Virus record (IMG/VR): IMGVR_UViG_3300042261_000454
Coordinates: 1 to 41,518 of that record
DNA from: a virus
Direction: 5' to 3' (one strand)
DNA length: 41,518 nt
Position 1 is the stretch's first letter. The number at the start of each line of letters is the position of its first letter. This document shows, in pieces, positions 3,260 to 41,028 of the stretch. The notes under the pieces are model-generated. The model saw nothing but the letters and a program-made list of their open reading frames with translations. It had not been told where the DNA came from and searched no databases. Position numbers and translations under genes: made by a program.

Positions 3260-3516
3260 TGTGCGGGTTAATTAAAAACATAAAAACTGGAACAACTACA
3301 ATCATTGAGTATGAGCTAATACCATTAACGGAGCAACAGCTCAAAGAGCAGAGAAGAAGCGATATACTATCGGAGTTAGCAACATTAGACGAAAAAATGA
3401 CCCGAACGGAAGAAGATATAATTACTTATACAGGAATTTACAATAATCTTCCACAAATTCAAAAAGACCGATATGACAGAAAGCAAACATTGAGAGCAGA
3501 ATTACAAAATTTATAG
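3259..3516 (+). CDS. Small coiled-coil protein following fibre gene
   Basis: An 85-residue protein. The ATG shares its A with the fibre TAA stop (TAATG) and a purine-rich AAGGGGGAG precedes it, so it is translationally coupled to the fibre gene. The N-terminal ~25 residues (MCGLIKNIKTGTTTIIEYEL) look beta-stranded; residues ~27-85 are Lys/Glu/Arg/Leu-rich heptad-like helix. No family recognised. Position suggests a fibre accessory protein or chaperone; this is inference. Confidence 0.7.
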   Translation: MCGLIKNIKTGTTTIIEYELIPLTEQQLKEQRRSDILSELATLDEKMTRTEEDIITYTGIYNNLPQIQKDRYDRKQTLRAELQNL

Positions 3517-3534
3517 AAATGGATGTGATAAAAT

Positions 3535-3870
3535 ATGCAGACACTAAAATTGATAGCAGAAATGTTTTTAGCAGTAGTGGCAATAGGCGGAATTTTGATA
3601 GGATGGTACAAATTCATGGTTAATGCTGTGTCCAAAAAAGTCCGTTTGCAATGCCATTGCGACTTGATGTTGCTGAAAGATAGCTCACTCGCTAATCTTA
3701 TGGACGGTCTCGAAAGAAAATGCGAATACTACATAAACAGAGGATATGCCACAATCGAAAACCGAAAAACCATTTCGACAATGTTTAGGGCGTATGCTGG
3801 GCTTGGGGGTAATAGCTTTATCGAGGATCTAATTGAAAAGGTGAATTCGTTACCTTTTAATGAATTATAA
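3535..3870 (+). CDS. Membrane-anchored phage protein in the lysis cassette
   Basis: A 111-residue protein with one N-terminal transmembrane helix (about residues 7-26, AEMFLAVVAIGGILIGWY) and a cytoplasmic helical domain containing CEYYINRGYATIENRKTI and YAGLGGNSFIEDLIEKV. This Y-I-x-x-G-Y-A-T / LGGN pattern is seen in many phages of Bacillota next to holin and endolysin genes, where function is not established. It lies directly upstream of the holin-like gene, whose ribosome binding site overlaps its end. It may be an accessory holin or lysis regulator. Confidence 0.7.
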   Translation: MQTLKLIAEMFLAVVAIGGILIGWYKFMVNAVSKKVRLQCHCDLMLLKDSSLANLMDGLERKCEYYINRGYATIENRKTISTMFRAYAGLGGNSFIEDLIEKVNSLPFNEL

Positions 3871-3883
3871 GGAGTGTGTTAAA

Positions 3884-4105
3884 ATGAAAAGATTTTTAAA
3901 AGATATGGCGGAAAGAGCCATTAAGACAGTAGCACAGACTGCGATTGCTACCATAGGCACTACTACTGCGTTTGGTGCTGTTGATTGGAAGTTGGTAGCA
4001 TCAACTGCTGTATTAGCAGGTATCGTATCCGTATTAACTTCGGTAGCGAGCAGACCTATTGGCAGCCCTAACACAGCGAGCATTTTAAGAGAGGATGACA
4101 GATAA
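3884..4105 (+). CDS. Holin, r1t-like
   Basis: A 73-residue protein with a charged N-terminus (MKRFLKDMAERAIKT) followed by two hydrophobic stretches (about residues 15-32 and 38-58) separated by AVDWK, and a short polar tail. This matches the two-helix layout of r1t-type holins, in which an aspartate-tryptophan turn separates the helices. The start is the ATG at 3884, 10 bases after AAGGAG at 3868-3873; an upstream in-frame ATG at 3860 would fall inside the preceding gene and lacks a binding site. Holins open the membrane so the endolysin reaches the wall. The next gene overlaps by one base (TAATG). Confidence 0.75.
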   Translation: MKRFLKDMAERAIKTVAQTAIATIGTTTAFGAVDWKLVASTAVLAGIVSVLTSVASRPIGSPNTASILREDDR

Positions 4106-4893
4106 TGCCGAAGATAGCTATTGATGCAGGACACGGAGTAACAACAGCAGGTAAGAGAAGCTTTGACGGCTCACTCTTAGAATATCAGTTTAACAGAGAA
4201 ATAGCAAAGCGGCTTAATTATCATCTGCAAAGGCACGGTTTTGAAACGCTACTTACTGCCCCTGACGACACTGATGTGGATTTGTGGCAGAGGTGTGTAA
4301 CAGCTAATAACTGGGGTGCGGACTTGTTTATATCCCTACACGGTAACGCATACGGAACTAATTGGAATGATGCTAATGGTTGGGAGATATGTGTGCTACG
4401 ATTAGGTGGGAATGCTGAAAAGGTTGCTAAATTAATCTACAAGCAATCAATACCGTTTCTCGGTTTAACTGACCGCATAGCTAAGAATGGCGGTAGAATT
4501 AAGACCGATAATCTTGCAGTTTTGCGTGATACTAATATGTCAGCTGTCTTGATAGAGCACGGATTTTACACTAACCAAAGCGATTTAGCCCTTATGAAAA
4601 CGGTGGAGTTTAAAGAGAAGTGTGCTGTTGCGGATGCGAAAGGTATATGCGAGTTTTATGGAGTTGCTTGGAAAGAGGATGTCCCTGCTGCTCCAACTGA
4701 CACTACGAACTACAAAGCCCTATACGAACAGGCACAGGCTAAACTTAGTGAGTATGACGCTAAGATTGCAGAGCTTAACAGCAAGATAGCGTTGCTATCT
4801 GACACTAATACCTTTCAAGCTAACTCAATCGCTGAACTTAACACTAAAATAACCACTTTACGAAACGCCATCACCATTTTTAAATCATTTTAG
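4105..4893 (+). CDS. Endolysin, N-acetylmuramoyl-L-alanine amidase (Amidase_3)
   Basis: A 262-residue zinc amidase that cuts the bond between muramic acid and L-alanine in peptidoglycan. Residues 1-~180 form an Amidase_3 domain: AIDAGHG (first zinc His), LLEYQFNREIA (Glu ligand region), FISLHGNA (second His) and VLIEHGFYTN (catalytic Glu). The C-terminal ~75 residues form a Leu/Ile/Lys/Ala-rich coiled coil (KIAELNSKIALL and similar heptads), unlike the usual SH3 or LysM cell-wall-binding modules, so wall binding may be by oligomerisation. No signal peptide is present, consistent with holin-dependent release. The start overlaps the holin stop. Confidence 0.92.
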   Translation: MPKIAIDAGHGVTTAGKRSFDGSLLEYQFNREIAKRLNYHLQRHGFETLLTAPDDTDVDLWQRCVTANNWGADLFISLHGNAYGTNWNDANGWEICVLRLGGNAEKVAKLIYKQSIPFLGLTDRIAKNGGRIKTDNLAVLRDTNMSAVLIEHGFYTNQSDLALMKTVEFKEKCAVADAKGICEFYGVAWKEDVPAAPTDTTNYKALYEQAQAKLSEYDAKIAELNSKIALLSDTNTFQANSIAELNTKITTLRNAITIFKSF

Positions 4894-4907
4894 AGGAAGT
4901 GAGTTAA

Positions 4908-5252
4908 ATGAATATAAGCGAGCTTTTTTCACTCGTTGACACCTTAAAACCCAATTCATATGGTAACAGTGAAAAGCTGATGTGGCTTAACCAGGTTGAG
5001 CAGCAGATAGCGGATATACAGGGTGAAACATTCACACCTTATACAGAGAGTGGTGACGCTGAGCTTTTAGCTCCTGTGCCGTTTACCAATGTGTATGAAT
5101 ACTACTTAAAGGCGATGATTGACAATGAGAGCAAGGACTTTGAAGGTTACAGCAATAATCTTATTCTCTATAATGCTTCTTTTAGCAGTTACACAAAGCA
5201 CTTCTTGCGTAATAACGCCGGAACAGACACTGCGGTGTCTAACATTTGGTAG
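4908..5252 (+). CDS. Putative head-tail connector/adaptor protein
   Basis: A 114-residue, mostly helical protein (start MNISELFSLVDTLKPN) with a conserved-looking V-P-F-T-N-V-Y-E-Y-Y-L-K-A-M-I-D segment around residues 58-75. Size, helical content and position directly before the nozzle-like protein resemble gp6-type or T7 gp11-type connectors that bind the portal. GAGGAAGTG precedes the ATG. The family assignment is by architecture and context rather than a diagnostic motif. Confidence 0.6.
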   Translation: MNISELFSLVDTLKPNSYGNSEKLMWLNQVEQQIADIQGETFTPYTESGDAELLAPVPFTNVYEYYLKAMIDNESKDFEGYSNNLILYNASFSSYTKHFLRNNAGTDTAVSNIW

Positions 5253-5268
5253 AGAGGGCGACGATGAT

Positions 5269-6969
5269 ATGGAGCTACCCGTTTTAAAACCCTACCGCAA
5301 GGCATCTAAAAAATTCATACTTGACTTCTTGGGTTACAATGCTAACCCTGTTCCTCGTGAGGGCGAGTTCTCGGATATGAAGAACCTTTCGTCAGACTAT
5401 TTTCCCTGCATATCGCCGAGAGGGTCAAGGCAAGAGCTAATTGACATATCCAACAACTACGCTGATGAACGTAACGCCATTTTATCCCGTAACGATAAAC
5501 TCGCTTGGGTAGATGGCGACAAGCTGTATTATGGCACTGCTGACGATAACGAGGATGTCGGAACAGTTGACGACACGGCAGGGCTTAAACGGTCGCTTGT
5601 GGCTATGGGGGGCAAAACGCTCATATTCCCTGACAAGAAATGTTTTCACGTAGACCCCCCTAAAACGAGAGGTGAGTATTATGGTGAGCTAATTGACACA
5701 CCTACTCCCGATTTAGAATTTAAAATTGTTCTTAATGATGTGCACGAGTTTACAGACAGTAAAATATTTTTTGTTAAGGCATCAGGCACCAATCACACCT
5801 TAGGGGATGGTTTGCGTATAGGTGACACAGTTACTATCACAGTTTCAAGAACAGGGCAATCGGATGAGCGTATAACGGCTGTCTCGGACAGCAATGTGTT
5901 TCTTTATTTTGACAGCGAATTAGAGGAGTTTCTCTATGCTTTTTTTCCCGAGGTGTGGCCCGCAACTCATCTGAGCTACATTAAGTTTAAAGAAGGGACA
6001 TTTACACCCGAAGATAATTTAACGGGCGTTTCGGTAACAATACACCGGAATGTCCCCGCTATTGACTACGCAATCACAAACGACAATCGCTGTTGGGGCG
6101 TTAAAGGAAGCGACATCTATGCATCTAAGCAGGGTGACCCTTTCAACTGGAACCAGTTTCAAGGGATACTAACCGACAGCTATGCTACGGATGTTGATAC
6201 AAACGGAGACTTCACCGGTGCGGCTGTTTATTCGGGCAACCCTGTTTTTTTTAAAGAGGACTACATACACAGAGTGTATGGTAATAAGCCGAGTAACTAT
6301 CAAATAGTAACCGCACAGGCATACGGTGTGCAAAACGGAGCATATAAAACACTTGTGAACATAAATAACACTCTATTCTATATGAGCCGTGTAGGTGTTA
6401 TGGCGTATAACGGCGGTTATCCAACTCTTATATCGGATAACTTCGGGGCGACGAAGTATCAAGGCATATCGGCAGGCACAGACGGCAGGAAATACTATTT
6501 ATCGCTTAAAGATTTAGATAGCAACTCATATAAGTTGTTTGTATATGACACTCTTAAAAACCTGTGGCATTTAGAGGACACAATGCAAGCTATTTGTTTC
6601 TCTTATTCAGACGGCGACTTCTATATGCTCAACGCAACAAAGGGTAAAATAGAGCTTATAGGGGCAGGCACAGAGGCGGTTGAGTGGGAAGCTACATTAG
6701 GAGAGTTTAACGAGGTTATAGATGATAAAAAAGGGTATAGCAAGCTATCACTCAGAGTTGACCTTGACCGTGCATCAGAGCTTAATGTCCTCATTAAATA
6801 CGATAACAGTGAGTGGATTACGGTTAAAAGTGTAGCCGGCGGGGACAAGAGGGTTATTGAGGTTCCAATAGTCCCTCTTAGGTGCGACACCTTTCAAATT
6901 AAGTTAACCGGCAAGGGCTTTTGCAAGGTGTATTCACTTAACCGTGAGTTTGTGTTTGGGGGTAGATGA
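5269..6969 (+). CDS. Putative tail nozzle / tail tubular protein B-like beta-propeller
   Basis: A 566-residue protein. The ATG at 5269 is chosen because AGAGAGGG at 5251-5258 is correctly spaced; earlier in-frame starts lie inside the upstream connector gene. The sequence is beta-rich with blade-like repeats (RNDKLAWVDGDKLYYG; GAAVYSGNPVFFKEDYIHRV; TLFYMSRVGVMAYNGGYP; GTDGRKYYLSLKD; YDTLKNLWHLED), which is the pattern of podovirus tail nozzle/stabilisation proteins such as T7 gp12-like proteins. Located after the connector and before internal virion proteins, as in short-tailed phages. The next gene overlaps by ATGA. Confidence 0.65.
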   Translation: MELPVLKPYRKASKKFILDFLGYNANPVPREGEFSDMKNLSSDYFPCISPRGSRQELIDISNNYADERNAILSRNDKLAWVDGDKLYYGTADDNEDVGTVDDTAGLKRSLVAMGGKTLIFPDKKCFHVDPPKTRGEYYGELIDTPTPDLEFKIVLNDVHEFTDSKIFFVKASGTNHTLGDGLRIGDTVTITVSRTGQSDERITAVSDSNVFLYFDSELEEFLYAFFPEVWPATHLSYIKFKEGTFTPEDNLTGVSVTIHRNVPAIDYAITNDNRCWGVKGSDIYASKQGDPFNWNQFQGILTDSYATDVDTNGDFTGAAVYSGNPVFFKEDYIHRVYGNKPSNYQIVTAQAYGVQNGAYKTLVNINNTLFYMSRVGVMAYNGGYPTLISDNFGATKYQGISAGTDGRKYYLSLKDLDSNSYKLFVYDTLKNLWHLEDTMQAICFSYSDGDFYMLNATKGKIELIGAGTEAVEWEATLGEFNEVIDDKKGYSKLSLRVDLDRASELNVLIKYDNSEWITVKSVAGGDKRVIEVPIVPLRCDTFQIKLTGKGFCKVYSLNREFVFGGR

Positions 6970-7133
6970 TAGTGCAGGATACAGTTCTTTTTTCCATAAG
7001 GACGCCTAAGCCAACGCTTGGAAATGATTTAATTGACAACCAAAACAAAATACTTGACTATGTGTCAGAGGTTTTTAAAGAGCTTGAAATAGCAATAAAC
7101 GACCTTGAAAAAAATTTGCAGGAGGTGCAATAA
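6966..7133 (+). CDS. Small helical structural-module protein
   Basis: A 55-residue open frame whose ATG (6966) overlaps the preceding TGA in an ATGA junction, implying translational coupling. Residues 1-20 are polar with a TPKPTLGND motif; residues 21-55 form a charged amphipathic helix (QNKILDYVSEVFKELEIAI). The next gene's ribosome binding site (GGAGGTG, 7121-7127) lies in its last codons. No family recognised. The tight coupling on both sides makes it a likely real virion or assembly protein. Confidence 0.65.
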   Translation: MIVQDTVLFSIRTPKPTLGNDLIDNQNKILDYVSEVFKELEIAINDLEKNLQEVQ

Positions 7134-7134
7134 A

Positions 7135-7821
7135 ATGGCATACACAAGCCCGTATAGCGACAAGAAAAAAACCCTTTTAGATGAACTAATGAATACCCCC
7201 GATTTTAACTATGAGGCTAATAACGACCCATCATACCAAAGTTACGCAAAGATATACGGTAACTTAGGTGACAGAGCTATGGCTAACACTATGTCAGAGG
7301 CGTCGGGTTTAACCGGCGGACGGTTAAACTCTTGGGCGGTGTCAGCAGGACAGCAGGCAAAGCAGAATTTTGACCAACAGCTAACTGACAAGATACCCGC
7401 TTTGCAGCAGATGGCTTATAATATGTATATGGATAAGCTCAATAACAAAAAAAGCACGCTCAGTCTATTAGGGCAAGAGGATGACAGGGAGTATAGTAGA
7501 TGGGCAGACGATAGGGATTACACTTACAGGCAAAACCGAGATAAAGCGTCCGATAGCCAGTGGTGGAGCAACTTTAACGAGAATAAGAGGGTTAGCGATA
7601 GGGATTACACTTACAGGCAAAACCGAGATAAAATTAGTGATGAAAGGTATGTAGACGAAAAGAAGGACGATGCAGACTTTGGCGTGGCATACCAAGCAAT
7701 GATGGGCTCGAATGACCCTGTAAAATGGCTTAAAGAAAATGCCCCCTACCTAACTCCTGCCGAAATTGCAAAACTACAACAATATTTACCTGATACAGAT
7801 TGGACTAAATACTTGAAATAA
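7135..7821 (+). CDS. Internal virion-type protein with internal repeat
   Basis: A 228-residue hydrophilic helical protein. The ATG at 7135 is chosen because GGAGGTG sits 7 bases upstream; an earlier ATG at 7105 would precede that site. The N-terminal half contains SYAKIYGNLGDRAMANTM and SAGQQAKQNFD, a pattern common in phage proteins encoded just before giant internal proteins. The middle carries two copies of RDYTYRQNRDK x SD, from a 37-base exact DNA repeat at 7509-7545 and 7596-7632. It is probably ejected with, or packs against, the giant protein encoded next; this is inference from context. Confidence 0.65.
   Translation: MAYTSPYSDKKKTLLDELMNTPDFNYEANNDPSYQSYAKIYGNLGDRAMANTMSEASGLTGGRLNSWAVSAGQQAKQNFDQQLTDKIPALQQMAYNMYMDKLNNKKSTLSLLGQEDDREYSRWADDRDYTYRQNRDKASDSQWWSNFNENKRVSDRDYTYRQNRDKISDERYVDEKKDDADFGVAYQAMMGSNDPVKWLKENAPYLTPAEIAKLQQYLPDTDWTKYLK
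7509..7632 (+). repeat. Two exact 37-base direct repeats, 87-base period
   Basis: The same 37 bases occur at 7509-7545 and 7596-7632, in frame, encoding the duplicated DRDYTYRQNRDK segment. The 50 bases between them differ (they include a WWSNFNENKR segment). The exact identity, including third codon positions, points to a recent duplication. Confidence 0.9.
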
Positions 7822-7832
7822 GGGTGGTAAAA

Positions 7833-10800
7833 ATGCCTAAATCTTGGGAAGACATAAAGAACGAAAGAGCAAAAAAACAGACCTATAAACAAGAAGGAAC
7901 AACTTGGGAAGACATAAAGAGGAAAAGAGCAGGAATACAAACTCCTGCTCAAAATGCACCCGCCCAAAATGGCGACTACACTTCTATTTTTAAAAACTAT
8001 AAACCCCATCCGCCTGTTGACTTTACTCCAAAGCCAATACAGACAGCACCAGTCCCTACTCCGGAACCTACACCTTTGCAAAGGGCTGTAGCCGATGCCT
8101 ATATTAACAGAGGGCAACCACAAATAGCAGCTATTGTCCCTACATTTAGCAATACCCCCCCTAAGGAGTTACCCGATATGCTAAGAGGCGAGGAAGCCCC
8201 TGCACAAAAGGTAGTGGATTTTGTTAACTCGGTGGGCAACTCCATATTACAAGGGGCGAAGTCTGCATCAAAAGGCATAGTTAATGCCCCGAGAGCCGTT
8301 GATAAGGCGTTTTCACGGTTTGTGTTTGTTCCAGGTTCAGATAAATATGACAAGGGTTTTCTGCCTTTTTTAGACGATTACATAAACTATATAGCCGAAG
8401 GCGAAAAGCAGAGTGAACAAGCTGCAAATCAAAATGCAGGAAGTGTCCAAAAGTTTATTAACTCGGGCGTAAAAGGAGTTACCGAAATGGCTCCCAATAT
8501 CGTAACGGCAATAGGGACAGGTGGGGCAAGTGCAGGAGCTTCACTGTCCGCAGAGGCAACGACAATAGCCAAAGCCCTCTCCCAGCTTAAACCGATGGGG
8601 ATGTTTATGACACAGGCGGCGGGGCAATATGCGTATGAAGCAGAACAAGAGGGAGCTACTCCTGAACAAGCCCTTACATATGGCATATACGGCGGACTGT
8701 CGGAAGGCGTTACAGAGCTATTGCCTTTTGGCATACTCAAAAAAGCCCTAAATGTAGGAGATGATGTGGCTAAACCTTTTGTTAAAAATGGTGTAAAAGG
8801 GCTGCTTGACCGCTTCGGTAAAAAAGGTCTTTTGTGGCTTGAAGAAACAGGGGCTAATGTGGTGCAAGAAATAGCCGTTAATCCTCTTACCCAATTAGCT
8901 AAAAAAGGAGCTTACCAAAATGATATGCCTATCTACGGAGATGGCGGGGTAATTGACCCTAACCAGGTTGTCCCGTCCGCACAAGGGGCATTGGCTATGT
9001 CTCTTGTGCTAACTGCTCTCGGTTTGCCTTTTAGTATGAGGAGTAACCGCTTGGCAACTAAGATAGTGCAGAGCACGGAAAAGCCAACAGAGCAGGTGTT
9101 GAAAGAGTTACAGCAAGCCGTTCAAGAGGATATTAAGAGCGTCCCGATAGGGGAAATTCAAGGCAGTGAAACACCTTTAAACGAACCTGAAGCTCTAAAC
9201 GAGACCACGCTTGTAAGCTCCGCCGCTCAAAAGCCGGTTGAAGTTACCCCCTCTTTTAATCAGGGTCCGACAAAAACCGCTTTGAGTGCAACAACTGCAA
9301 CTTATAAAGAGGGGGACAGCGTTGTTTACGACGGGGAAATATGGACGGTAGCTGGGCAAAATGAGGATGGCACTTATGAGCTTAATCAAAAGGAAAATGG
9401 CATATTCAAAAGTTCGGCTGTGTTTAAAGCCCCCGCAGAGAAAATACAACCAAACAACATAGAAAACCCTGAACTGAATAAGTATGGTCGCAAAGGGCAA
9501 AACGCATTTAAGTCGTGGGCCAAGAATGAATACGTTAACATTGATATTAGTAACACGGAAAGCACTGAGACAAAGCTGTATAAAAACTTCTTTGAGACAT
9601 ATTATAACGGTGGTTTGAACGGTTTACCTATCCCATTGCTGCAAAAAACTGCATCGGTGTTAGACGCTCATTTTCCGCCTTTCTTAGCTGATGTATTTTA
9701 TGTCGCCGGCAAGAACGATGCGACTAAACAACGTGAAGCACCCACACCAACTAAAAACACCCCAGTTGCTAAAACTGAAACGGGTGCTAAAAATACTGTC
9801 GGTGAATATGACGGTATTTACGGTGTAGAAAAGCGTAAACAGGCAACAGGGCTTTGGTTTGCCAATAAGCAGCTAAGGTCGGATATGTTTGCAAAATACA
9901 GCAGTGAAGATACATCTCTCAATCCCACTCAAAAGTATGTTGCTAATGTGGGAAGGATACTTAGTGGGGCGTTTGATGTTTCGCCTTATCTTGTGCAACA
10001 GCCGTCTATTAAAAGGGATAACATAACTAATGAAACAAACAGGGATAGTAAAATTGACACAAAGGGCATTACTGGCATCGCATCATCTACAAAAGTAATC
10101 GTAGTTGAAGAAAATAACAATAAGAGCGAAAAAACGATTAAAGAAGTGCAGGCCGATTTAAAAAAGCGGCCTATTTTACCAAGCGGGTATGAGCTACTTA
10201 CAAAGCCGCAAGCATTATATTATGTGAAGGATGTTTTTATACATAAAGGGGAGTTATTAAAAATAGTTTCTGTCTCAGCTGATGGGCAAGCCATTTATGC
10301 CAAGGGAATTGATAAGTCGGTTAGTATGCTTTATCCTCTTATGGACGCCCTTGAAATGAGGAAAAGTGAAGTTGATTATTCTATTTCTCATTTTGATGAC
10401 GAACTTGCTTTATACAACAAGCGATTTGTAGAACAAAAGCCAACTGCCACTCCTAATGGGGTTCAGCTGAAAGCAGAAGAAATAACAGAAGAGCTATTGC
10501 ACGGAACTTCGCAAACTGAAAATCAGTCTGACCAGGACCAAGAACGCAATAACCCTTCTGATAATAATATACCCAAAAATCTTAAAAAAGTCAAGCCAAA
10601 AAACGAAACTGTTGACAAATCAAACGAAAAGGCAGATAATGAAGATGGAAGTGATGCAGCCCCTGTTATTAAAATAGCAGGCGAGCTGTTAACCAAATTT
10701 ATTGATAAGGGGATTGAATTCTCCCCCGCAAAGCTCTATGAGATTGCTGATAAAGCATTTGGCGGAACAATGGCACAGGGCAAATATTCTATTAAAGATG

Positions 10801-13800
10801 CCTACGATGCCCTTGAATTAGCGGTTAACAAACATATTATGAATAATTTTCTTAAAACGGATGACTTTAATTCTTCTGTTGAGAAAGCAAAAACAGCTGT
10901 TAGGGCGTTCCAGGAAATGCTTAGTAAACTGCCCACGCAAAATAAAAGAACGGTTGAGATGGAGCAGTATCAGCAGTTTTCAACACCGCCAAATATTGCC
11001 TACTTAGCGGCTTGGGTATCTAACATAAACAAAAACGACACAGTTCTTGAACCAAGCGGGGGCATAGGTGGACTTGCTCTGTTTGCAAAATCTTGGGGAG
11101 CAGAGGTCCATCTTAACGAATTATCCAAAAGAAGGCTTGAAATTGTTAAGAACTTAGGGTTTGACGGCTATTATAACCTTAATGCTGAGCAAATAGACAA
11201 CTTGTTGCCCGAAAGTATTAAGCCGAGCGTCGTTATTATGAACCCCCCTTTTAGTTCCGCTGCCACCCGTATGGGGGATAAGAACAGCACAGCTAATGCC
11301 AAAAGGCACATAGAACAAGCCCTTGCAAGATTAGAGCCTAACGGGCGTCTTGTTGCCATATTAGGGCAAGGAATGGAGTATTATTCATCCTTTAAACCTT
11401 GGTGGGACAGTCTATCGGAAAAATACAATGTTAGAGCAAACATCCGTATAAGCGGAGATAATTATAAGAAATATGGAACTTCTTTCGGCATTCAGTTGGT
11501 AGTGATAGACAAAACAGGGAAGACGACCAAACCTATTGAAACAGGTGTTTACGAAGACCTGCTACAAATACCAAAAGTATTGGAGAGTATAAGAAATGAA
11601 AGAGTTAATTACGGTAAACCAAACACAACTATCACAAGCGGTGAAGCTCCTGTTAAAGAACCCGGACCCAACAGGTCTGTATCTGATGCAGGCAATAGAG
11701 GAAACCAACTGGGCGAAAATAAACATCCAAACGGAGCTGAAAAGAGACCTTCGGGAAGCAATAGACCTAAAAGTAGAAACAATGACACCGGAGAAACAAT
11801 ACAAGTTTCTGACAACAGTTCAAGAGGAAAAGCAGGAACAGGACAAGGACAAAACGGCAATGTTAGAGGAGACAGCGAGAGAGGGAGCGTTGCCCCAATT
11901 AGTATCTCAAATGCTCAACAATCTTATGGCGAACTTAGAACTGAACCAATAGCCGAAGACATACAGAGTGAAGATGATGTTTATTCTAACTACACACCTA
12001 AAAAATTAGCTATTAAGGGAGCTAAACCCCATCTTACCACTCTCGTGGAAAGTGCTGCTATGGCGGCTATTGACCCCCCTGACATCGCTTATGCACCTCA
12101 TCTACCCAATTCAATTATAACAAAGGGCGATTTAACTATTGCACAGTTAGAAACCGTTGTTTATGCAGGTCAAGCCCACTCTAAAACCTTGCCAAACGGG
12201 CAAACAAAAGGGTTCTTTATAGGTGACGGCACTGGTGTTGGGAAGGGGCGTGAAATAGCAGGCATAATACTGGATAATTTTAACCAGGGTCGCACAAAAG
12301 CGGTGTGGATTTCCACAGGGCAGAAGCTTTTTGAAAGTGCTAAAAGGGACTGGACCGGGCTTGGGGGCAACGAAAAAGACCTGTTTAATCTATCTGATGT
12401 TAAAGTATCAAACGGCATAATGCTTGATAAAGGCATAATGTATGCGTCGTTTGGAACTTTGCAGGGGGCATCAAAAGCAGACAATAAACGTAACAGGATT
12501 ACACAGATATTAGAGTGGCTTGGTGAAGACTTTGATGGTGTAATTGTTTTTGATGAAGCCCATAAAATGGCAAACGCCGGAAAAAACAGTGAAGCTAAAA
12601 GGGGTAAAAGCAAAGCCACAGCAACCGCTTTACGAGGCATAGAACTGCAAAACCTTCTTCCAAAAGCAAGGGTGGTGTATTCCTCTGCTACCGGTGCTAC
12701 TGAGGTGGGAAATTTAGCTTACGCATCACGATTAGGTTTGTGGGGCGAAGGAACATCATTTGCAGATGTAGATACCTTTATTAGCAAGATTGCCTCGGGC
12801 GGTCTTGCTGCAATGGAACTTGTTGCTCGTGATATGAAAGCTCTTGGTGTTTACATTGCACGTAACCTTTCTTATAAAGGTGTTGAGTATGACACATTAA
12901 CCCACGACATCACCCCCGTGCAGGAAGAGATATATAACACTATGGCGACAGCGTGGCAAACAGTTCTGCAAAATTTGAATAAGGTTTTGTCCGATACTAA
13001 TGCGGATAAAAATTCAAACGCTAAAAAGAACGCAAAAGCGGCTTTTTATGGGGCGATGCAACGCTTTTTCAATCAGGTTATTACATCTATGTCAATGCCT
13101 TCTGTCATAAAAGACATTCAGCGTGAGTTGGATGCCGGGCATAGTGCTGTAATACAGATAGTAAACACAAACCAAGCTGCGACTGACCGCAAGTTATCTG
13201 ATATGGACGAAAATGACAGTTTAGAAGACTTAGATTTAACCCCTTCAGAGGGTCTGATTGACTTTCTTAGAAACAGCTTTCCCGTCTATGAATACGAAGA
13301 GACAGTTGACGATAACGGCAACACCGTGTCCGTTTTAGCGACAGATGGGGACGGCAATCCTATTGTAAGTAGAGAGGCAGTCAAAATAAGAGACGGCTTA
13401 ATAGCTGATATCAAAGAAATGAAAGTTCCTGACGGACCACTTGAAATGCTTTTTGATGCTTTCGGGGTTGAAATGGTGGCGGAAGTTACCGGAAGAACCC
13501 GCCGTATAATTTCAAAAAAACAAGCGAACGGCGAAACAAAAAGGGCAGTTGAAAGCAGGGGTAAGAGCCACAGTCTCGCTGACATCAAAGCATTTCAAGA
13601 CGGTAAAAAAAGAATACTGATATTCAGCAATGCAGGCGGAACAGGGGAGAGTTATCACGCGGATAAAAACGCTAAAAACCAGCAAAAAAGGATTCATTAC
13701 CTGCTACAACCTGGTTGGAGTGCCTTTAATGCTACACAGGGCTTTGGGCGTTCACATAGAACAGGGCAAGTGTTGCCCCCTCTATTTAGGCTTGTTACAA

Positions 13801-16800
13801 CTAATATTACCGGACAGAAACGCTTCGTAACGACAATTGCAAAAAGGCTTGATAGCTTAGGAGCGTTAACGAAAGGGCACAGAGGAACCGGTGGCGGTGG
13901 TATATTCGGACAAAAGGATAATCTTGAAAGCGAAATTGCAAGAGATGCCTTAGCAACATTTTATGGTTGGCTCGGAAGACACAACTCTATTACAGGTATT
14001 GCCGGTAAAGAAATCTTCACAAAAATGGGGCTTTACGAGAAATTTTATGATAAGTTTGGGATATTTAAACCCTCTAACGAGGATATATTAAGAGATATAC
14101 CCACTTTCCTTAATCGTATTCTTTCCCTTGAAGTTAATATTCAGAACGCAACATTTGAACAGTTCAATTACTTTTTTGAACGGCATTTTAGTCACGCCGT
14201 TGAACTCGGGCAAGTTGATGTGGGACTTGAAAACTACATAGCTTCTAAAATTGACGTTAAAGACGAAGTAGTAATTCAAACTGATGAACAGAGCGGAGCA
14301 GAAACCAAATATGTTCAGCTTACTGCATACAAGAAAACAAAGCTAATACCTTACGGAGATTTAACCAACTTCAAGCCGAATTTTGTGGGGCTTGTTAAGG
14401 ACGACAACGGCTCTGTAAAAGCGGTTTATCGCGTTGCTAATAAGACCCTTGCTAATGGGGATATAACAGAGGCATACGAGCTTTTATCTCCTGTTGTTGG
14501 GGTGAAGTCTAATTACATTCAAAAAACCCTTGACGAGAAAACAAAAACTATTCCTAAAACGGATTGGCTTAGGGAGTGGGAAAAAGAGACCGACAACGCC
14601 CCTGAATACACAGAAAACACAGTTCATATGCTTACAGGAACGCTGCTCCCAATATGGGATAAACTACCCACCTCTAACACACGGGTTATGCGGGTCGTTT
14701 CGTCTGACGGCAGACAGTATCTTGGGCGTATTATTCCGCCAAACGAGATTGACATAACTTTGTCTAAGTTTAAGACCGAAAGAACAAAAGAGATTTACAC
14801 GCCTTCAAGTCTTTTCCGTTCTGTTATGGTCAAAGGGTTAGAGATTAAACTTGAAAGGGATAGAACAAAACTATCCCGGAAGCGGGTAAGTGGAGAATAT
14901 CGTCTTGAAATTTCAGGGGATAACTCTTGGCAGTATCAACGCCAAATACCGGGTATAATAACCGAAACCATCCAATATGAAAGGCGTTATTTTATACCAA
15001 CAGACGAAGCTACTGCTCTGCCTATCATAGAACGATTAACTAACTACAATCCGGTTGTAAGTGTTGAAAGCAAGCAAACTGTTTCCGAGGTGGACGCTTT
15101 AACCACAAGCACAGACTATCTCACATCTACATCTAATTCACCCGCAAAATTGGGTGTTGCCACCGGGGTGGACGCTTTAACCACAAGCACAGACTATCTC
15201 ACATCTACATCTAATTCACCCGCAAAATTGGGTGTTGCCACCGGCGATAACTTAACTGGTAAAGCAAAAAAAGCATCCGAGATTGTTAAGCAATTTGAAA
15301 CAAAGATTATGGATGCCACAGGTGAAAACTACATTATTAGAAATGGCAAGAAAACAACCCAGGGTTCTATTGGTGAGTTTAACCGCCGTGAATACTCTGT
15401 TCGCTTACGGAAAGCAAATGACATTCCTACACTGTCCCACGAGGTGGGTCATATGTTTGATACCCTTTATGAACTTAGCACAGGTCGGTCATCCGAAATA
15501 AACGCCGAGCTAACCCAACTTGGGGAAAACACTTCAAAGCCCAACTACAATCCCCCAAGAAAACGTCGTGAAGGTGTGGCGGAGTTTGTCCGTTTATACC
15601 TAACCGATTATGAGAATGCCGTAGCTACATCCCCTTTGTTTGCCTCTTTCTTTGAAAGAAGACTGCCATCGTCCGTGCTAATCGTTCTGAATGAGCTTAA
15701 ATCTGATATTTGGAGCCTTACTAACCTTGACCCCGTTAGCCGAGTTAAATCGTCTATAAGCTTTAAGAGTGATAAAAAGCAAATCAAAATTAGTGAGAAA
15801 TTAAACCCTATTGAGCTATTTAAAACGCTCTATTTTGGAGTAGTTGATGCTACATATCCGGTTGAGGATGCAGCGGGTGAGTTAGGGGGTAGTTCAGCTC
15901 GTCAAAATGTCGTTGAAACCCTCTCTGCTTTAAGAGGATATGAAGGCATAGCGATGTTTGATATTAACCCTCACGGACACGAGGGCAAGTATCAGACTAC
16001 TCTTAACGGGGATAAAGTAGGAGACACTTTGTATGAGATACTTAAACCTATTCATACTGACGAAACTACAAGGACGGACTTTTGGGCGTATGCCGTTGCA
16101 AGGCGTTCAGAGGATTACTTCAACAGAGGACTTGAAATGCCCGACACAAAAGAAACTTATGAAGAAACCGTTCGCATAATGGAAGTTAAACACCCTGAGT
16201 TTAAAGACACGTTTGCTAAACTACTCGTTTATGAGGAAAACAATCTTAATTTACTTGTTGAAGGCGGCATCTATTCAGCGGATAAAATTGCTGAAATAAG
16301 AGAGGCAAACCCTAACCACGTGTCCTTAAAAAGAATACACGATACCCTTAACAGTGTAGCAGGTTCAGGCAGGAGTTTAGGCGGGTCAAAGAAGGTAATC
16401 AAATCATTGAAAGGCGGCGGGCAGGATATTGTTGACCCGGAAGAAAGCATAATTAATAACACATTTATAAACCGTTCAGTTGCAATGCGTAATGCTCTGC
16501 TCGTTAAACTGGCAGATTTAGCAGACAATGCAAAGGGCAAAGGGTTTATAATGGCGAAAGCCAAAACACAATTTAACGTGACTAAATTTAATCTTGAACA
16601 GCTTAAAGAGTTGATACAGCAACAAATGGGCGGGCTATTTGACAATGTTAATCTTGATGTGATGGCAAGAATATTCACGCCTAACTATTTAGCCGGACCT
16701 AATCAGATTGTTGTATATCGCAAAGGGCAACCGGTGTTGTATGATGTCAACCCCTTCTTGTATAATAGCATATCTTCTATGACTAATACACAGCAAAACT

Positions 16801-18299
16801 TGTTTTTAGAAGCCCTTATGTTGGCCGCGAGAATACAAAAAGCGGGTATTATATTTACCCCTAAATATCTTGCTTACAACTTGTCAAGAGACACCATCCA
16901 CAATTTAGTGGCGTCAAGAAACGACATAAGTCCGGTTGATATCGCTTTGGGTTTTGTGTCTGCCTTGACAAGAGATAAGTATTACAAACTGGCACAGACC
17001 GAAGGAGCTTACACTAACTTCTATATGGCTAATGACAGACCCTTTCAGCAAGAGACTATTGACGATATGCTTGCAGGGACATCTCTTGCTAAACGCTTTT
17101 TAAATGCTTTAAGGCATCCTTCAGAAGTTGCTCACGGTATTCTTGAGCCGTTTGAAATGGCGGGTAAAATTGCAGAGTTCAAAAAACATTTAAAAGATGC
17201 GGGGTTTAGCCGTAAAGACATTGGGACGGCAGTGTATCAGGCAAGAGACTTAAACATTGATTTCCGTCGTATGGGGTATTGGACTAAAAAATATCAGCTT
17301 AACCGTTTGATTAATTTCTTGAATAGCCAAATACAAGGCGTTGATAAAACTATAAGACTGTTTGTAGACCCAAAAACGAGGTATAAAGCGACCTTCAAAT
17401 CAATGTTGTATATTACCTTGCCGACGATATTCTTGTGGTGGCTTTGCCGCGATAATGACTATTATAAAAATTTACCCGCATACAGACGAGATTTCTTTTG
17501 GAACATCCCTCTCGGTAACCCCTCTACCACTAAGAACTTCTTGCCTATACCCCGCCCTTTTGAGCTCGGTCTTGTTTTTGGGGCTTTGCCCGAAAGAATA
17601 CTGCGAACACTTTTTGAGGAAGACCCTATCTCTTTTAGTGGTTTTGGTGAGACAGTGCAGCAAGCATTAATTCCGGAGATAATGCCAACAGCTTTTCAAC
17701 CTTTATACGAAGATGCTACCGGTAAAGACTGGCGTAACATCCCTATTCTCAATGCCCAAGATAAGATGCTCGGTGCAACTAATCCCGAATTGCAGTTTAA
17801 CAGCTACACTTCGGAAACATCTAAGGCAATATCTAACATTGTTAAAGGGCTGCCTGTCCCTGACCTTCTTAAGTCGCCAAAACGACTTGACCATTTAATT
17901 AAGGGGTATACCGGAACGATGGGTGATGTTGCTCTTAACTCCGTTGACCAAATAACAGGAGCAAAAGAAGGTGTGCCTGTAATAGGGGGGTTAACACGCA
18001 ATTTTGTTGTTGACGGGCTAAAAAGCTCACAAATACCTGACAACTATTACAGTTATAAAGAGACACTTGACAGTCAATATAAAGTAGCCCTTGTTACCGG
18101 TAAAGCTCCGCAAGGTTATAACAACGATGTCCGTAAATACTTTAATCAAATAAGTGAAGAGTTGACTAAAATTAAGAAAGCGGCATCCTTTTTAGAAAAT
18201 ACCCCAAACCCGGAGAAAGAGCAAAAGCTAAATAAGCTCAGAGAGACAGAACTTAAACTGATGAAGTCAGCGATTGAGCTTTACAACAAAAACAGGTAA
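7833..18299 (+). CDS. Giant polyvalent virion protein: methyltransferase + Strawberry-notch helicase + zincin (DarB-like)
   Basis: A 3488-residue protein taking a quarter of the genome; ATG 7833 follows AGGGTGG. In order: two WEDIK repeats (residues ~4-13 and 24-33); a Gly/Ala-rich amphipathic region (~120-410) with a hydrophobic stretch near 381-400; a small beta domain (~490-540); an N6-adenine-type methyltransferase (~1040-1250: EPSGGIGG near 1073, NPPF at 1137-1140); a low-complexity Gly/Asn/Ser/Arg linker (~1255-1375); a Strawberry-notch-like helicase (Walker A GDGTGVGKGR 1464-1473, DEAH 1574-1577, GRSHRTGQ near 1975); a zincin (HEVGH 2536-2540, Glu in EGVAEF near 2581); and an LPD38-like C-terminus with a hydrophobic helix near 3190-3206. 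Phage P1 DarB joins the same two DNA-modifying activities and enters cells with the DNA. By analogy this may be ejected to block restriction and aid DNA entry. The fusion call is firm; the role is inferred. Confidence 0.85.
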   Translation: MPKSWEDIKNERAKKQTYKQEGTTWEDIKRKRAGIQTPAQNAPAQNGDYTSIFKNYKPHPPVDFTPKPIQTAPVPTPEPTPLQRAVADAYINRGQPQIAAIVPTFSNTPPKELPDMLRGEEAPAQKVVDFVNSVGNSILQGAKSASKGIVNAPRAVDKAFSRFVFVPGSDKYDKGFLPFLDDYINYIAEGEKQSEQAANQNAGSVQKFINSGVKGVTEMAPNIVTAIGTGGASAGASLSAEATTIAKALSQLKPMGMFMTQAAGQYAYEAEQEGATPEQALTYGIYGGLSEGVTELLPFGILKKALNVGDDVAKPFVKNGVKGLLDRFGKKGLLWLEETGANVVQEIAVNPLTQLAKKGAYQNDMPIYGDGGVIDPNQVVPSAQGALAMSLVLTALGLPFSMRSNRLATKIVQSTEKPTEQVLKELQQAVQEDIKSVPIGEIQGSETPLNEPEALNETTLVSSAAQKPVEVTPSFNQGPTKTALSATTATYKEGDSVVYDGEIWTVAGQNEDGTYELNQKENGIFKSSAVFKAPAEKIQPNNIENPELNKYGRKGQNAFKSWAKNEYVNIDISNTESTETKLYKNFFETYYNGGLNGLPIPLLQKTASVLDAHFPPFLADVFYVAGKNDATKQREAPTPTKNTPVAKTETGAKNTVGEYDGIYGVEKRKQATGLWFANKQLRSDMFAKYSSEDTSLNPTQKYVANVGRILSGAFDVSPYLVQQPSIKRDNITNETNRDSKIDTKGITGIASSTKVIVVEENNNKSEKTIKEVQADLKKRPILPSGYELLTKPQALYYVKDVFIHKGELLKIVSVSADGQAIYAKGIDKSVSMLYPLMDALEMRKSEVDYSISHFDDELALYNKRFVEQKPTATPNGVQLKAEEITEELLHGTSQTENQSDQDQERNNPSDNNIPKNLKKVKPKNETVDKSNEKADNEDGSDAAPVIKIAGELLTKFIDKGIEFSPAKLYEIADKAFGGTMAQGKYSIKDAYDALELAVNKHIMNNFLKTDDFNSSVEKAKTAVRAFQEMLSKLPTQNKRTVEMEQYQQFSTPPNIAYLAAWVSNINKNDTVLEPSGGIGGLALFAKSWGAEVHLNELSKRRLEIVKNLGFDGYYNLNAEQIDNLLPESIKPSVVIMNPPFSSAATRMGDKNSTANAKRHIEQALARLEPNGRLVAILGQGMEYYSSFKPWWDSLSEKYNVRANIRISGDNYKKYGTSFGIQLVVIDKTGKTTKPIETGVYEDLLQIPKVLESIRNERVNYGKPNTTITSGEAPVKEPGPNRSVSDAGNRGNQLGENKHPNGAEKRPSGSNRPKSRNNDTGETIQVSDNSSRGKAGTGQGQNGNVRGDSERGSVAPISISNAQQSYGELRTEPIAEDIQSEDDVYSNYTPKKLAIKGAKPHLTTLVESAAMAAIDPPDIAYAPHLPNSIITKGDLTIAQLETVVYAGQAHSKTLPNGQTKGFFIGDGTGVGKGREIAGIILDNFNQGRTKAVWISTGQKLFESAKRDWTGLGGNEKDLFNLSDVKVSNGIMLDKGIMYASFGTLQGASKADNKRNRITQILEWLGEDFDGVIVFDEAHKMANAGKNSEAKRGKSKATATALRGIELQNLLPKARVVYSSATGATEVGNLAYASRLGLWGEGTSFADVDTFISKIASGGLAAMELVARDMKALGVYIARNLSYKGVEYDTLTHDITPVQEEIYNTMATAWQTVLQNLNKVLSDTNADKNSNAKKNAKAAFYGAMQRFFNQVITSMSMPSVIKDIQRELDAGHSAVIQIVNTNQAATDRKLSDMDENDSLEDLDLTPSEGLIDFLRNSFPVYEYEETVDDNGNTVSVLATDGDGNPIVSREAVKIRDGLIADIKEMKVPDGPLEMLFDAFGVEMVAEVTGRTRRIISKKQANGETKRAVESRGKSHSLADIKAFQDGKKRILIFSNAGGTGESYHADKNAKNQQKRIHYLLQPGWSAFNATQGFGRSHRTGQVLPPLFRLVTTNITGQKRFVTTIAKRLDSLGALTKGHRGTGGGGIFGQKDNLESEIARDALATFYGWLGRHNSITGIAGKEIFTKMGLYEKFYDKFGIFKPSNEDILRDIPTFLNRILSLEVNIQNATFEQFNYFFERHFSHAVELGQVDVGLENYIASKIDVKDEVVIQTDEQSGAETKYVQLTAYKKTKLIPYGDLTNFKPNFVGLVKDDNGSVKAVYRVANKTLANGDITEAYELLSPVVGVKSNYIQKTLDEKTKTIPKTDWLREWEKETDNAPEYTENTVHMLTGTLLPIWDKLPTSNTRVMRVVSSDGRQYLGRIIPPNEIDITLSKFKTERTKEIYTPSSLFRSVMVKGLEIKLERDRTKLSRKRVSGEYRLEISGDNSWQYQRQIPGIITETIQYERRYFIPTDEATALPIIERLTNYNPVVSVESKQTVSEVDALTTSTDYLTSTSNSPAKLGVATGVDALTTSTDYLTSTSNSPAKLGVATGDNLTGKAKKASEIVKQFETKIMDATGENYIIRNGKKTTQGSIGEFNRREYSVRLRKANDIPTLSHEVGHMFDTLYELSTGRSSEINAELTQLGENTSKPNYNPPRKRREGVAEFVRLYLTDYENAVATSPLFASFFERRLPSSVLIVLNELKSDIWSLTNLDPVSRVKSSISFKSDKKQIKISEKLNPIELFKTLYFGVVDATYPVEDAAGELGGSSARQNVVETLSALRGYEGIAMFDINPHGHEGKYQTTLNGDKVGDTLYEILKPIHTDETTRTDFWAYAVARRSEDYFNRGLEMPDTKETYEETVRIMEVKHPEFKDTFAKLLVYEENNLNLLVEGGIYSADKIAEIREANPNHVSLKRIHDTLNSVAGSGRSLGGSKKVIKSLKGGGQDIVDPEESIINNTFINRSVAMRNALLVKLADLADNAKGKGFIMAKAKTQFNVTKFNLEQLKELIQQQMGGLFDNVNLDVMARIFTPNYLAGPNQIVVYRKGQPVLYDVNPFLYNSISSMTNTQQNLFLEALMLAARIQKAGIIFTPKYLAYNLSRDTIHNLVASRNDISPVDIALGFVSALTRDKYYKLAQTEGAYTNFYMANDRPFQQETIDDMLAGTSLAKRFLNALRHPSEVAHGILEPFEMAGKIAEFKKHLKDAGFSRKDIGTAVYQARDLNIDFRRMGYWTKKYQLNRLINFLNSQIQGVDKTIRLFVDPKTRYKATFKSMLYITLPTIFLWWLCRDNDYYKNLPAYRRDFFWNIPLGNPSTTKNFLPIPRPFELGLVFGALPERILRTLFEEDPISFSGFGETVQQALIPEIMPTAFQPLYEDATGKDWRNIPILNAQDKMLGATNPELQFNSYTSETSKAISNIVKGLPVPDLLKSPKRLDHLIKGYTGTMGDVALNSVDQITGAKEGVPVIGGLTRNFVVDGLKSSQIPDNYYSYKETLDSQYKVALVTGKAPQGYNNDVRKYFNQISEELTKIKKAASFLENTPNPEKEQKLNKLRETELKLMKSAIELYNKNR
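11596..11952 (+). CDS. Candidate overlapping gene inside the giant protein gene (+1 frame)
   Basis: A 118-residue frame read +1 relative to the giant gene. GGAGAG at 11582-11587 lies 8 bases before its ATG. The product is an ordinary-looking acidic helical protein (for example LSQAVKLLLKNPDPTGLYLM, TPEKQYKFLTTVQEEKQEQD, ending SQMLNNLMANLELNQ), whereas the giant gene's frame in exactly this stretch encodes a Gly/Asn/Ser/Arg low-complexity linker. That asymmetry is what one expects of overprinting, where the linker is the by-product. Against it: the stretch is purine-rich and T-poor, so stops are rare and other frames are also open. No family recognised. Confidence 0.42.
   Translation: MKELITVNQTQLSQAVKLLLKNPDPTGLYLMQAIEETNWAKINIQTELKRDLREAIDLKVETMTPEKQYKFLTTVQEEKQEQDKDKTAMLEETAREGALPQLVSQMLNNLMANLELNQ
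15089..15244 (+). repeat. Perfect 78-base tandem duplication inside the giant gene
   Basis: Bases 15089-15166 and 15167-15244 are identical, adding 26 in-frame residues (DALTTSTDYLTSTSNSPAKL and flanks) twice between the helicase region and the zincin. Perfect identity at all codon positions indicates a very recent duplication, or an assembly effect. Confidence 0.92.
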
Positions 18300-24703: not shown

Positions 24704-24718
24704 GAAAGGATGTTAAAA

Positions 24719-25753
24719 ATGTTTGAATATTTAAAATTCAAGGAGCAGACCGAGGCTGTGTGCCTTAAAGCTGTTGAACAGGACGGCGACGCATTGCGTT
24801 ATGTCAAGGAGCAGACCGAGGCTGTGTGCCTTAAAGCTGTTGAACAGGACGGCGACGCATTGCGTTATGTCAAGGAGCAGACCGAGGCTGTGTGCCTTAA
24901 AGCTGTTGAACGCAACGGCTACGCATTGCGTTATGTCAAGGAGCAGACCGAGGCTGTGTGCCTTAAAGCTTTTGAACAGGACGGCGACGCATTGCGTTAT
25001 GTCAAGGAGCAGACCGAGGCTGTGTGCCTTAAAGCTGTTGAACGCAACGGCTACGCATTGCAGTATGTCAAGGAGCAGACCGAGGCTGTGTGCCTTAAAG
25101 CTGTTGAACAGGACGGCGACGCATTGCGTTATGTCAAGGAGCAGACCGAGGCTGTGTGCCTTAAAGCTGTTGAACGCAACGGCTACGCATTGCGTTATGT
25201 CAAGGAGCAGACCGAGGCTGTGTGCCTTAAAGCTTTTGAACAGGACGGCGACGCATTGCGTTATGTCAAGGAGCAGACCGAGGCTGTGTGCCTTAAAGCT
25301 GTTGAACGCAACGGCTACGCATTGCAGTATGTCAAGGAGCAGACCGAGGCTGTGTGCCTTAAAGCTGTTAAACAGGACGGCGACGCATTGCGTTATGTCA
25401 AGGAGCAGACCGAGGCTGTGTGCCTTAAAGCTGTTGAACAGGACGGCTACGCATTGCAGTATGTCAAGGAGCAGACCGAGGCTGTGTGCCTTAAAGCTGT
25501 TGAACGCAACGGCTACGCATTGCAGTATGTCAAGGAGCAGACCGAGGCTGTGTGCCTTAAAGCTGTTGAACGCAACGGCGACGCATTGCGTTATGTCAAG
25601 GAGCAGACCGAGGCTGTGTGCCTTAAAGCTGTTGAACAGGACGGCTACGCATTGCGTTATGTGGAAATTAGAAGTGAAAAACTGACAAAGCTATATTCCG
25701 TATATGCGGAAGAATATAAAGAGTGGATGAGAAAGGACGTTAAAAATGGCTAA
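24719..25753 (+). CDS. DUF4116-like tandem-repeat protein (14 x 22 residues)
   Basis: A 344-residue protein almost wholly made of 14 exact-length 22-residue repeats, consensus KEQTEAVCLKAVEQDGDALR then YV (residues 8-315), with a short N-cap (MFEYLKF) and a 29-residue helical C-cap. The unit resembles DUF4116 repeats, which form helical arrays presumed to bind partners. Variation is confined to a few positions (V/F, E/K, QD/RN, D/Y, R/Q). ATG 24719 is 8 bases after AAAGGA; the in-frame ATG at 24710 touches that site. Its end overlaps the DUF2815 gene. Function unknown; it sits between nuclease and single-strand binding protein. Confidence 0.85.
   Translation: MFEYLKFKEQTEAVCLKAVEQDGDALRYVKEQTEAVCLKAVEQDGDALRYVKEQTEAVCLKAVERNGYALRYVKEQTEAVCLKAFEQDGDALRYVKEQTEAVCLKAVERNGYALQYVKEQTEAVCLKAVEQDGDALRYVKEQTEAVCLKAVERNGYALRYVKEQTEAVCLKAFEQDGDALRYVKEQTEAVCLKAVERNGYALQYVKEQTEAVCLKAVKQDGDALRYVKEQTEAVCLKAVEQDGYALQYVKEQTEAVCLKAVERNGYALQYVKEQTEAVCLKAVERNGDALRYVKEQTEAVCLKAVEQDGYALRYVEIRSEKLTKLYSVYAEEYKEWMRKDVKNG
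24740..25663 (+). repeat. 14 tandem copies of a 66-base unit
   Basis: Fourteen contiguous 66-base units fill 924 bases in frame. Two distinguishable core variants occur (CAGGACGGC and CGCAACGGC types). Units 3-6 and 7-10 show the same order of variants, a 264-base higher-order repeat, so the array has grown by multi-unit duplication. Confidence 0.97.
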
Positions 25754-40594: not shown

Positions 40595-40957
40595 ATGGCA
40601 GATAACGAGAATTTGATAAATGGGCAGGAGCTAACCGGCAGCGGTTCAGATGAAGCGGCTAAACCGGCTAAACCGGCTAAACCGGCTAAGGCAAAAGAAC
40701 CGGAGCTAACACCGGAGCAGTATTTACAGGAGAGAGTTCCTATTAAGCTGTTTAAGGATAACAACAAATACAAAGATGACGTAGTTGTTGGGGTTAATGG
40801 CAAGACGTGGCGTATTATGAGGGGTGTAGAGGTTATGGTTCCTCGTTTTGTCAAAAATGTTCTTGACAATTCCGAAATTCAGATGATGGAAGCATATAAG
40901 AATATGGACACACTTCAAAACGAGCTTGCACAAGCCGAACAGCAAGGAGCTTTATAA
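40595..40957 (+). CDS. Capsid-associated small protein (complete copy)
   Basis: A 120-residue protein: polar N-terminus, a repetitive (AKP)n linker at residues ~21-32 from a 9-base tandem repeat (GGCTAAACC type, ~40657-40689), a small conserved domain (ERVPIKLFKDNNKYKDDVVV, RIMRGVEVMVPRFVKNVL) and a C-terminal helix. AAGAAGG precedes the ATG. It is the full-length relative of the truncated gene at 1-230. Position after the capsid suggests a decoration or completion protein; not recognised beyond that. Confidence 0.75.
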   Translation: MADNENLINGQELTGSGSDEAAKPAKPAKPAKAKEPELTPEQYLQERVPIKLFKDNNKYKDDVVVGVNGKTWRIMRGVEVMVPRFVKNVLDNSEIQMMEAYKNMDTLQNELAQAEQQGAL

Positions 40958-40973
40958 AACGCAGGCGATTTAA

Positions 40974-41006
40974 AAAGGGGAATGGGTTAACAGCTTGTTC
41001 CCCTTT
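40974..41006 (+). other. Second copy of the conserved hairpin
   Basis: AAAGGGGAA (40974-40982) and TTCCCCTTT (40998-41006), as at 247-279, with one loop base changed. The stem is intact although the bases just upstream differ between copies. Confidence 0.5.
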
Positions 41007-41028
41007 ATTCAAAAAGGACGGTGGCAAA

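Follow-up and report, generated by a model that had tools for sequence, protein, structure and literature searches.

Phage-type polyvalent proteins were described by Iyer et al. 2017 with DarB of phage P1 as the archetype (PMC5512222), and share with the protein studied here a large multidomain chain, a dyad of methyltransferase and SF2 motor, a zincin, the LPD38 domain and a late-gene neighbourhood. The methylase-helicase dyad, a few Strawberry-notch instances, processing by zincins, and LPD38, given there as a phage-only domain, are all named in that paper, which proposes a role in entry and protection for the class (PMC5512222). A relative, the DarB-like gp69 of Burkholderia phage JC1 (4515 aa), was found in CsCl-purified virions with 51 unique peptides (PMC9144972). 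A gene of similar kind was described in CSP3 (PMC10269572), and some prophage giants have been noted to resemble large polyvalent proteins to a limited degree (PMC11318856). PMC5512222 was the sole paper found in a search for Strawberry notch together with phage, methyltransferase and helicase.

Comparison with described proteins

The protein of 3488 residues studied here is encoded in a 41,518-base virus record, the whole of which is called the window. It belongs to the already described class. Its fusion of methyltransferase, helicase and zincin, which the original prediction had taken as a departure from the DarB pairing, is the hallmark that defines the polyvalent class (PMC5512222). The class-specific LPD38 domain, which membership among the phage-type proteins asks for, is carried as well. 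The Strawberry-notch motor represents the rarer version of the dyad, of which PMC5512222 reports only few instances.

P1 DarB likewise combines an adenine methyltransferase with an SF2 motor and is a very large virion head protein of 250 kDa (PMC9024508). It is smaller than the present protein, and the zincin and the LPD38 chassis would, going by description, be additions here. Vibrio phage VvAW1 gp01 (3640 aa, "DarB-like antirestriction") has a homologous zincin-LPD38 tail with methyltransferase and motor upstream, but its motor is of the SNF2 type. Its gene sits just downstream of one annotated for DNA ejection, about two genes after it. Bacteroides phage BS-TP4 gp3 (5391 aa) likewise has a methyltransferase, a Strawberry-notch motor and LPD38 on a single chain, and differs in having extra ddrB-ParB and InPase domains and a zincin-like motif, HEAVAH (HExxxH); in the record it lies at 1255-17430 of PQ571277.1 (locus L018) and is annotated "hypothetical protein". 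The same domain order as in the present protein was found in locus L108 (a longer stretch of L027, IMG/VR contig 3300004241_000316), which is unannotated and whose N-terminus extends beyond the compared stretch. JC1 gp69, likened by description, has methylase, helicase and LPD38, and differs by a lytic transglycosylase-like domain, LPD3 and a HepA-type motor (PMC9144972).

Phage record and position of the gene

Other genes of the window match integrase, repressor, metalloprotease, exonuclease, single-strand binding protein, DNA polymerase, primase/helicase, DNA helicase, terminase subunits, portal, endolysin and major head protein. Human-faecal phage contigs give the nearest matches for both the terminase and the head protein; the latter also matches Bacillus phages Pascal and Page. 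We interpret the window as a phage that is temperate and podovirus-like. Its first and last stretches (1-791 and 40728-41518) share 90.8% identity, which may reflect a circular map with ends from mixed strains or a duplicated fibre-gene start. A frame of 347 codons at 24710-25753 consists mostly of 66-bp/22-aa tandem repeats (KEQTEAVCLKAV...) that are more than 90% alike.

The giant gene is the last of the late structural operon, two genes after one that matches a family of internal virion proteins, and thus has the late (virion) neighbourhood that the polyvalent class requires. The gene before it (Table 1) probably encodes a virion protein, judging by position. In the gut-phage record MT835607 (L181, from 13299 on the plus strand) a 2720-residue frame with HEGYH lies behind a homologue of that gene; in a second such record, MT835662, no HExxH was found in any frame of at least 300 residues.

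Given the integrase and the repressor, the giant could be imagined as an enzyme of the lysogen, for example a defence or superinfection-exclusion system, rather than a virion protein, and its methyltransferase region does match mad2 of the MADS system (E 2.1e-13). We regard this as very improbable. A MADS-type defence system was rejected because the match is to the methyltransferase only, with the other MADS parts absent from the matches listed. The gene is encoded by the late strand, past the lysis and tail genes, and points away from the repressor. LPD38 is moreover a phage-type domain (PMC5512222), and the LPD38-bearing, DarB-like relative JC1 gp69 is present in purified virions (PMC9144972), which lends support to the virion role originally proposed.

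Reading frame and domain architecture

That the region encodes one multi-enzyme protein was confirmed by its uninterrupted frame (Table 1), for which a GTG at 7824 offers another possible start, three residues further out. Each of the five other frames contains 117-413 stops over 7833-18299, and a chance open frame was therefore rejected. Several domains of unrelated activity were identified in the chain by Pfam, PHROGs and the models of zincin and methyltransferase, in the order TaqI/HsdM-type adenine methyltransferase, Strawberry-notch SF2 motor, HExxH zincin and C-terminal LPD38 region. The active-site motifs, predicted to be unbroken, were all read intact: NPPF (residue 1137), GDGTGVGK (1464), VFDEAH (1572) and HEVGH (2536). 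The NCBIfam search gave no match for the 3488-residue protein, and neither did a sequence search of the whole protein against the PDB at E<=0.1.

Table 1. Features of the giant gene and its upstream neighbour (positions in the window)
Feature	Position	Strand	Details
Neighbouring late gene	7105..7821	+	238 codons; without family match
Whole gene	7833..18299	+	single 3488-codon frame plus stop, without internal stop
Doubled (S/T)WEDIK motif	7843..7942	+	DNA copies 7843-7882 and 7903-7942; candidate packaging tag
N-terminal chassis region	8229..9152	+	residues ~133-440; glycine-rich, hydrophobic helices; common to L108, L028/L029, L037, L105
Helical region ahead of methyltransferase, in LPD36 position	10671..10952	+	model, alignment
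N6-adenine methyltransferase, HsdM/TaqI type	10977..11597	+	NPPF at 11241-11252; PHROGs, alignment, model
Strawberry-notch motor, N-terminal half (AAA_34)	12027..12941	+	residues 1399-1703; Pfam E 3.9e-116
Strawberry-notch motor, C-terminal half (Helicase_C_4)	13437..14231	+	residues 1869-2133; Pfam E 2.2e-77
Conserved block behind motor, end of exchangeable cargo	14232..15092	+	sequence comparison
78-bp tandem repeat, two copies (26 aa each)	15085..15240	+	15085-15162 and 15163-15240; cargo/zincin joint
Zincin	15273..15662	+	HEVGH 15438-15452; probable third ligand Glu 2584, 15582-15584
C-terminal chassis	15750..18296	+	mostly helical in model; contains LPD38
LPD38	17457-17972	+	residues 3209-3380; Pfam E 4e-35, score 122, cut-off 27 bits

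Methyltransferase and Strawberry-notch motor

The methyltransferase falls below the Pfam cut-off (MTS, E 0.0017) and was identified in PHROGs (phrog_6263, DNA methyltransferases, E 3.3e-12). The motifs F.TP (here FSTP), LEPS.G.G and NPPF are kept across a 20-row alignment. An AlphaFold2 model (pLDDT 75.6, low beyond fragment residue 315) superimposed on a putative class I methyltransferase (Z 18.8, 252 residues, 4.2 A), an HsdM subunit (Z 18.7, 208 residues, 2.8 A), EcoKI M (Z 18.5, 198 residues, 2.7 A) and M.TaqI (Z 18.4, 181 residues, 2.6 A). With FSTP and NPPF answering to the TP and NPP(Y/F) motifs in an HsdM/TaqI fold, it has the signature of a gamma-class N6-adenine methyltransferase.

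In the DarB-type dyad the methyltransferase is preceded by LPD36, four helices with a GXG(G/A/S) motif (PMC5512222). In the corresponding position of the present protein helices are seen in the model, several HsdM structural alignments start within them, and the loop reads FGGT in the alignment; the literal LPD36 motif is absent, and no LPD36 model was matched in the Pfam search of the protein.

The motor carries the hallmarks of the Strawberry-notch SF2 group, namely AAA_34, Helicase_C_4 and the Walker A and DExH motifs, and is fused C-terminal to the methyltransferase, as required of the SWI2/SNF2-clade dyad, here with a motor of Strawberry-notch type. A sequence search with the motor against the PDB at E<=1 returned two meaningless rows only. 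The block behind the motor (residues 2134-2420) is conserved among relatives by BLASTP. The Pfam Strawberry-notch pair, the PHROGs methyltransferase and the HsdM/TaqI-type model support a DarB-like character of the methyltransferase-helicase pair.

Zincin

No model above cut-off was obtained for the zincin from the sequence libraries (Pfam Reprolysin_5, E 0.094), and HExxH turns up in 45 of 2000 shuffled versions of the chain. A chance motif was nevertheless rejected, homology and fold being decisive. Residues 2446-3488 align by BLASTP with VvAW1 gp01 (E 2e-47, 24% identity, 923 columns), pairing HEVGHMFD...EGVAEFVRLYLT with HEMAHYLD...EGFAEFVRLWLT, so that HExxH...EGxAEFVR is aligned between the two tails. 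The model of the same residues (64 rows; pLDDT 79.8, pTM 0.73) shows a helix, three strands, the HExxH helix and a glutamate helix, the core described for polyvalent-protein zincins (PMC5512222). HExxH, a downstream Glu and a three-stranded sheet with flanking helices were accordingly seen by homology and in the model. The A4 rows were selected for HExxH, and its invariance in A4 is by construction.

A Foldseek search of the zincin model against the PDB gave no row at E<=0.001; the top row was PPEP-2 (probability 0.99, E 0.43). VIA-align placed the zincin on the lethal-factor zincin domain (Z 9.6, 134 residues, 4.5 A) and on PPEP-1/Zmp1 (Z 8.0, 126 residues, 3.5 A). Among predicted viral proteins, 85 rows that bear the name of a large polyvalent domain were matched by the modelled zincin/C-terminal region at E<=0.001. 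The zincin is real by homology and fold, and peptidase activity is predicted for it. The models thereby place both the methyltransferase and the zincin motifs in the folds originally named for them.

Polyvalent-protein zincins are described as processing enzymes, either self-processing or the cutting of host targets being permitted (PMC5512222). Within the same virion protein, the zincin might accordingly be an effector directed at host proteins once the protein has entered, leaving its own chain alone. The closest solved folds are those of zincins acting on other proteins, and the N4 virion RNA polymerase, in which a domain of this kind occurs, is packaged without being cut (PMC5512222). We consider such a host effector rather unlikely, in view of where the zincin lies in the chain and how constant its place is among relatives with different cargos (see below), which suits, and does not prove, self-processing.

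Cargo and chassis among relatives

Residues 2251-3488 matched 51 phage records and residues 951-2250 matched 31 (E<=1e-5); P1 is absent from the latter, and residues 1-950 had no match among named phages. The chassis is present in, among others, Escherichia phages PTXU04 and Pondi and Shewanella phage X14. Five giant proteins, this one included, share the block ~950-2420 by BLASTP but not the ends. With the protein of L108 the identity is 39.5% across residues 972-3487, and the N-terminal region is common to both. Two relatives were found in Clostridia MAGs by the genome scan. A relative of 4554 aa with HEVGH lies at 5606-19267 of L009, a contig of a goat-caecum Clostridia MAG, probably within a prophage. 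The frame of L010 stops within the motor region, and this locus was set aside. The 4626-aa relative at 4910-18787 of L013 has a RadC domain behind the motor; in PMC5512222, RadC is listed for polyvalent proteins of conjugative elements only.

A scan with zincin patterns collected 80 loci with a zincin-LPD38 tail, in which the presence of the zincin is by construction. Excluding the self-like L024, the cargo of the 79 others (phmmer, E<=1e-3, counts including near-duplicates) was methyltransferase only in 20, methyltransferase-SNF2 in 19, methyltransferase-Sno in 3, none detected in 33 and undetermined in 4. The N-terminal region at residues ~133-440 recurs in L028/L029, where no enzyme was found, in L037, with methyltransferase only, and weakly in L105. 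Cargo therefore varies while parts of the chassis persist.

Omitting rows cut at the C-terminus, the distance from HExxH to the C-terminal end was 993-1149 residues in the 19 methyltransferase-SNF2 and 3 methyltransferase-Sno rows, 941-1022 in 18 of 19 methyltransferase-only rows (the remaining one, L065, gave 90, its frame being broken there), and 684-1158 in the 30 rows for which no enzyme was detected. It is 952 in the present protein and usually ~950-1050; zincin and LPD38 together form the C-terminal chassis. Lying at the joint of cargo and chassis, the zincin is therefore placed as self-processing would need.

A second scan, with C-terminal patterns from which the zincin was excluded, gave 76 loci, 64 of them with the N-terminus within the locus. 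All four loci with a detected methyltransferase or motor (L104, which is self, L106, L108 and L109) hold HExxH before the chassis. A zincin was called in 13 of 17 proteins of at least 1600 aa vs 2 of 47 shorter ones (Fisher p 1.6e-8). After clustering at 50% identity, with five clusters of cut rows put aside, it was present in 12 of 16 long and 1 of 4 short clusters; as the contrast weakens in this way, the association of the zincin with long proteins is a trend only. In this set L112 is truncated at the C-terminus, L116 was counted as lacking a zincin since its HEVGHFLD failed the third-ligand pattern, and the zincin HMM overlooked the motif-bearing rows L105, L110 and L172.

Chassis-only proteins of ~1200-1370 aa are common among the loci of the second scan, which speaks for a protein that serves mainly as a structural ejection protein, like T7 gp16, and has secondary enzyme domains. 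In Pelagibacter phage Lederberg and in MW202898 the chassis gene comes after those for an acetyltransferase and a putative internal virion protein and a further gene, an order which we take to resemble that of the T7 core genes. A chiefly structural protein is still improbable, because every catalytic motif is intact and the cargo block is kept in L108 at the identity given above. Fold searches with the zincin region and the chassis, the latter within the larger model, also listed no solved ejection protein among their rows. A structural part in ejection and the enzymatic reading preferred below can hold together.

Termini and repeats

Two copies of a (S/T)WEDIK motif lie 20 residues apart at the start of the gene. 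L114 and L115 start with a like doubled motif, and the sequence upstream of their zincin differs; beyond these two and copies of this phage, the doubled pair was found nowhere else among the compared loci. The first 30 residues of P1 DarB are enough to direct a reporter into the capsid (PMC9024508), and the doubled motif is, purely by this analogy, a candidate packaging tag. By hydropathy, the 19-residue stretch at residue 379, within the N-terminal chassis region, is the most hydrophobic of the whole chain.

The 26-aa repeat ahead of the zincin, a feature absent from the original prediction, is rich in serine and threonine. The IMG/VR contig L001, 99.99-100% identical over the aligned stretches, carries one 78-bp copy in place of two, which may be true variation or an effect of assembly.

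Proposed function

The domain make-up, the intact motifs, the methyltransferase and zincin folds, the late position and the modular cargo/chassis pattern were read from the sequence and from models. The protein is likely to be a phage-type polyvalent (DarB-type) virion protein of a temperate podovirus-like phage, ejected to protect the incoming DNA and processed by its own zincin. As regards packaging, ejection, the methylation target, and cleavage and its timing, we infer the following course. The giant protein would be made late and packaged, perhaps by means of the doubled N-terminal WEDIK motif, and its chassis (the N-terminal hydrophobic region and the C-terminal LPD38 region) would be located among the internal virion proteins and be ejected along with the phage DNA. 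A role in the ejection conduit is a possibility suggested only by gene position, the hydrophobic or glycine-rich stretches and the shared chassis. The methyltransferase-Strawberry-notch cargo would then move along the incoming DNA, methylating adenines ahead of the host restriction enzymes, and the zincin at the joint would cleave the chain and release the cargo.

More tentatively, LPD38 proteins in general might be delivery chassis with an exchangeable cargo slot. An N-terminal membrane/packaging block, bearing the WEDIK tag, and a C-terminal zincin-LPD38 block would flank the exchangeable enzyme, the zincin at the joint would free it, and the serine- and threonine-rich repeat, with its variable copy number, would serve as cleavage linker.

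What appears to be new here is the anatomy, a recurring zincin-LPD38 chassis with different cargos upstream, as compared at the sequence level. No description of this pattern was found among the papers listed, judged by titles and the openings of abstracts. In itself the protein is a further, and a good, example of the polyvalent class, and the comparison is the useful part. With the near-constant place of the zincin beside varied cargos, the published proposal of zincin processing gains a specific predicted cut site. If true, this would account for the way in which podovirus-like phages bring in large, exchangeable enzymes along with their DNA.
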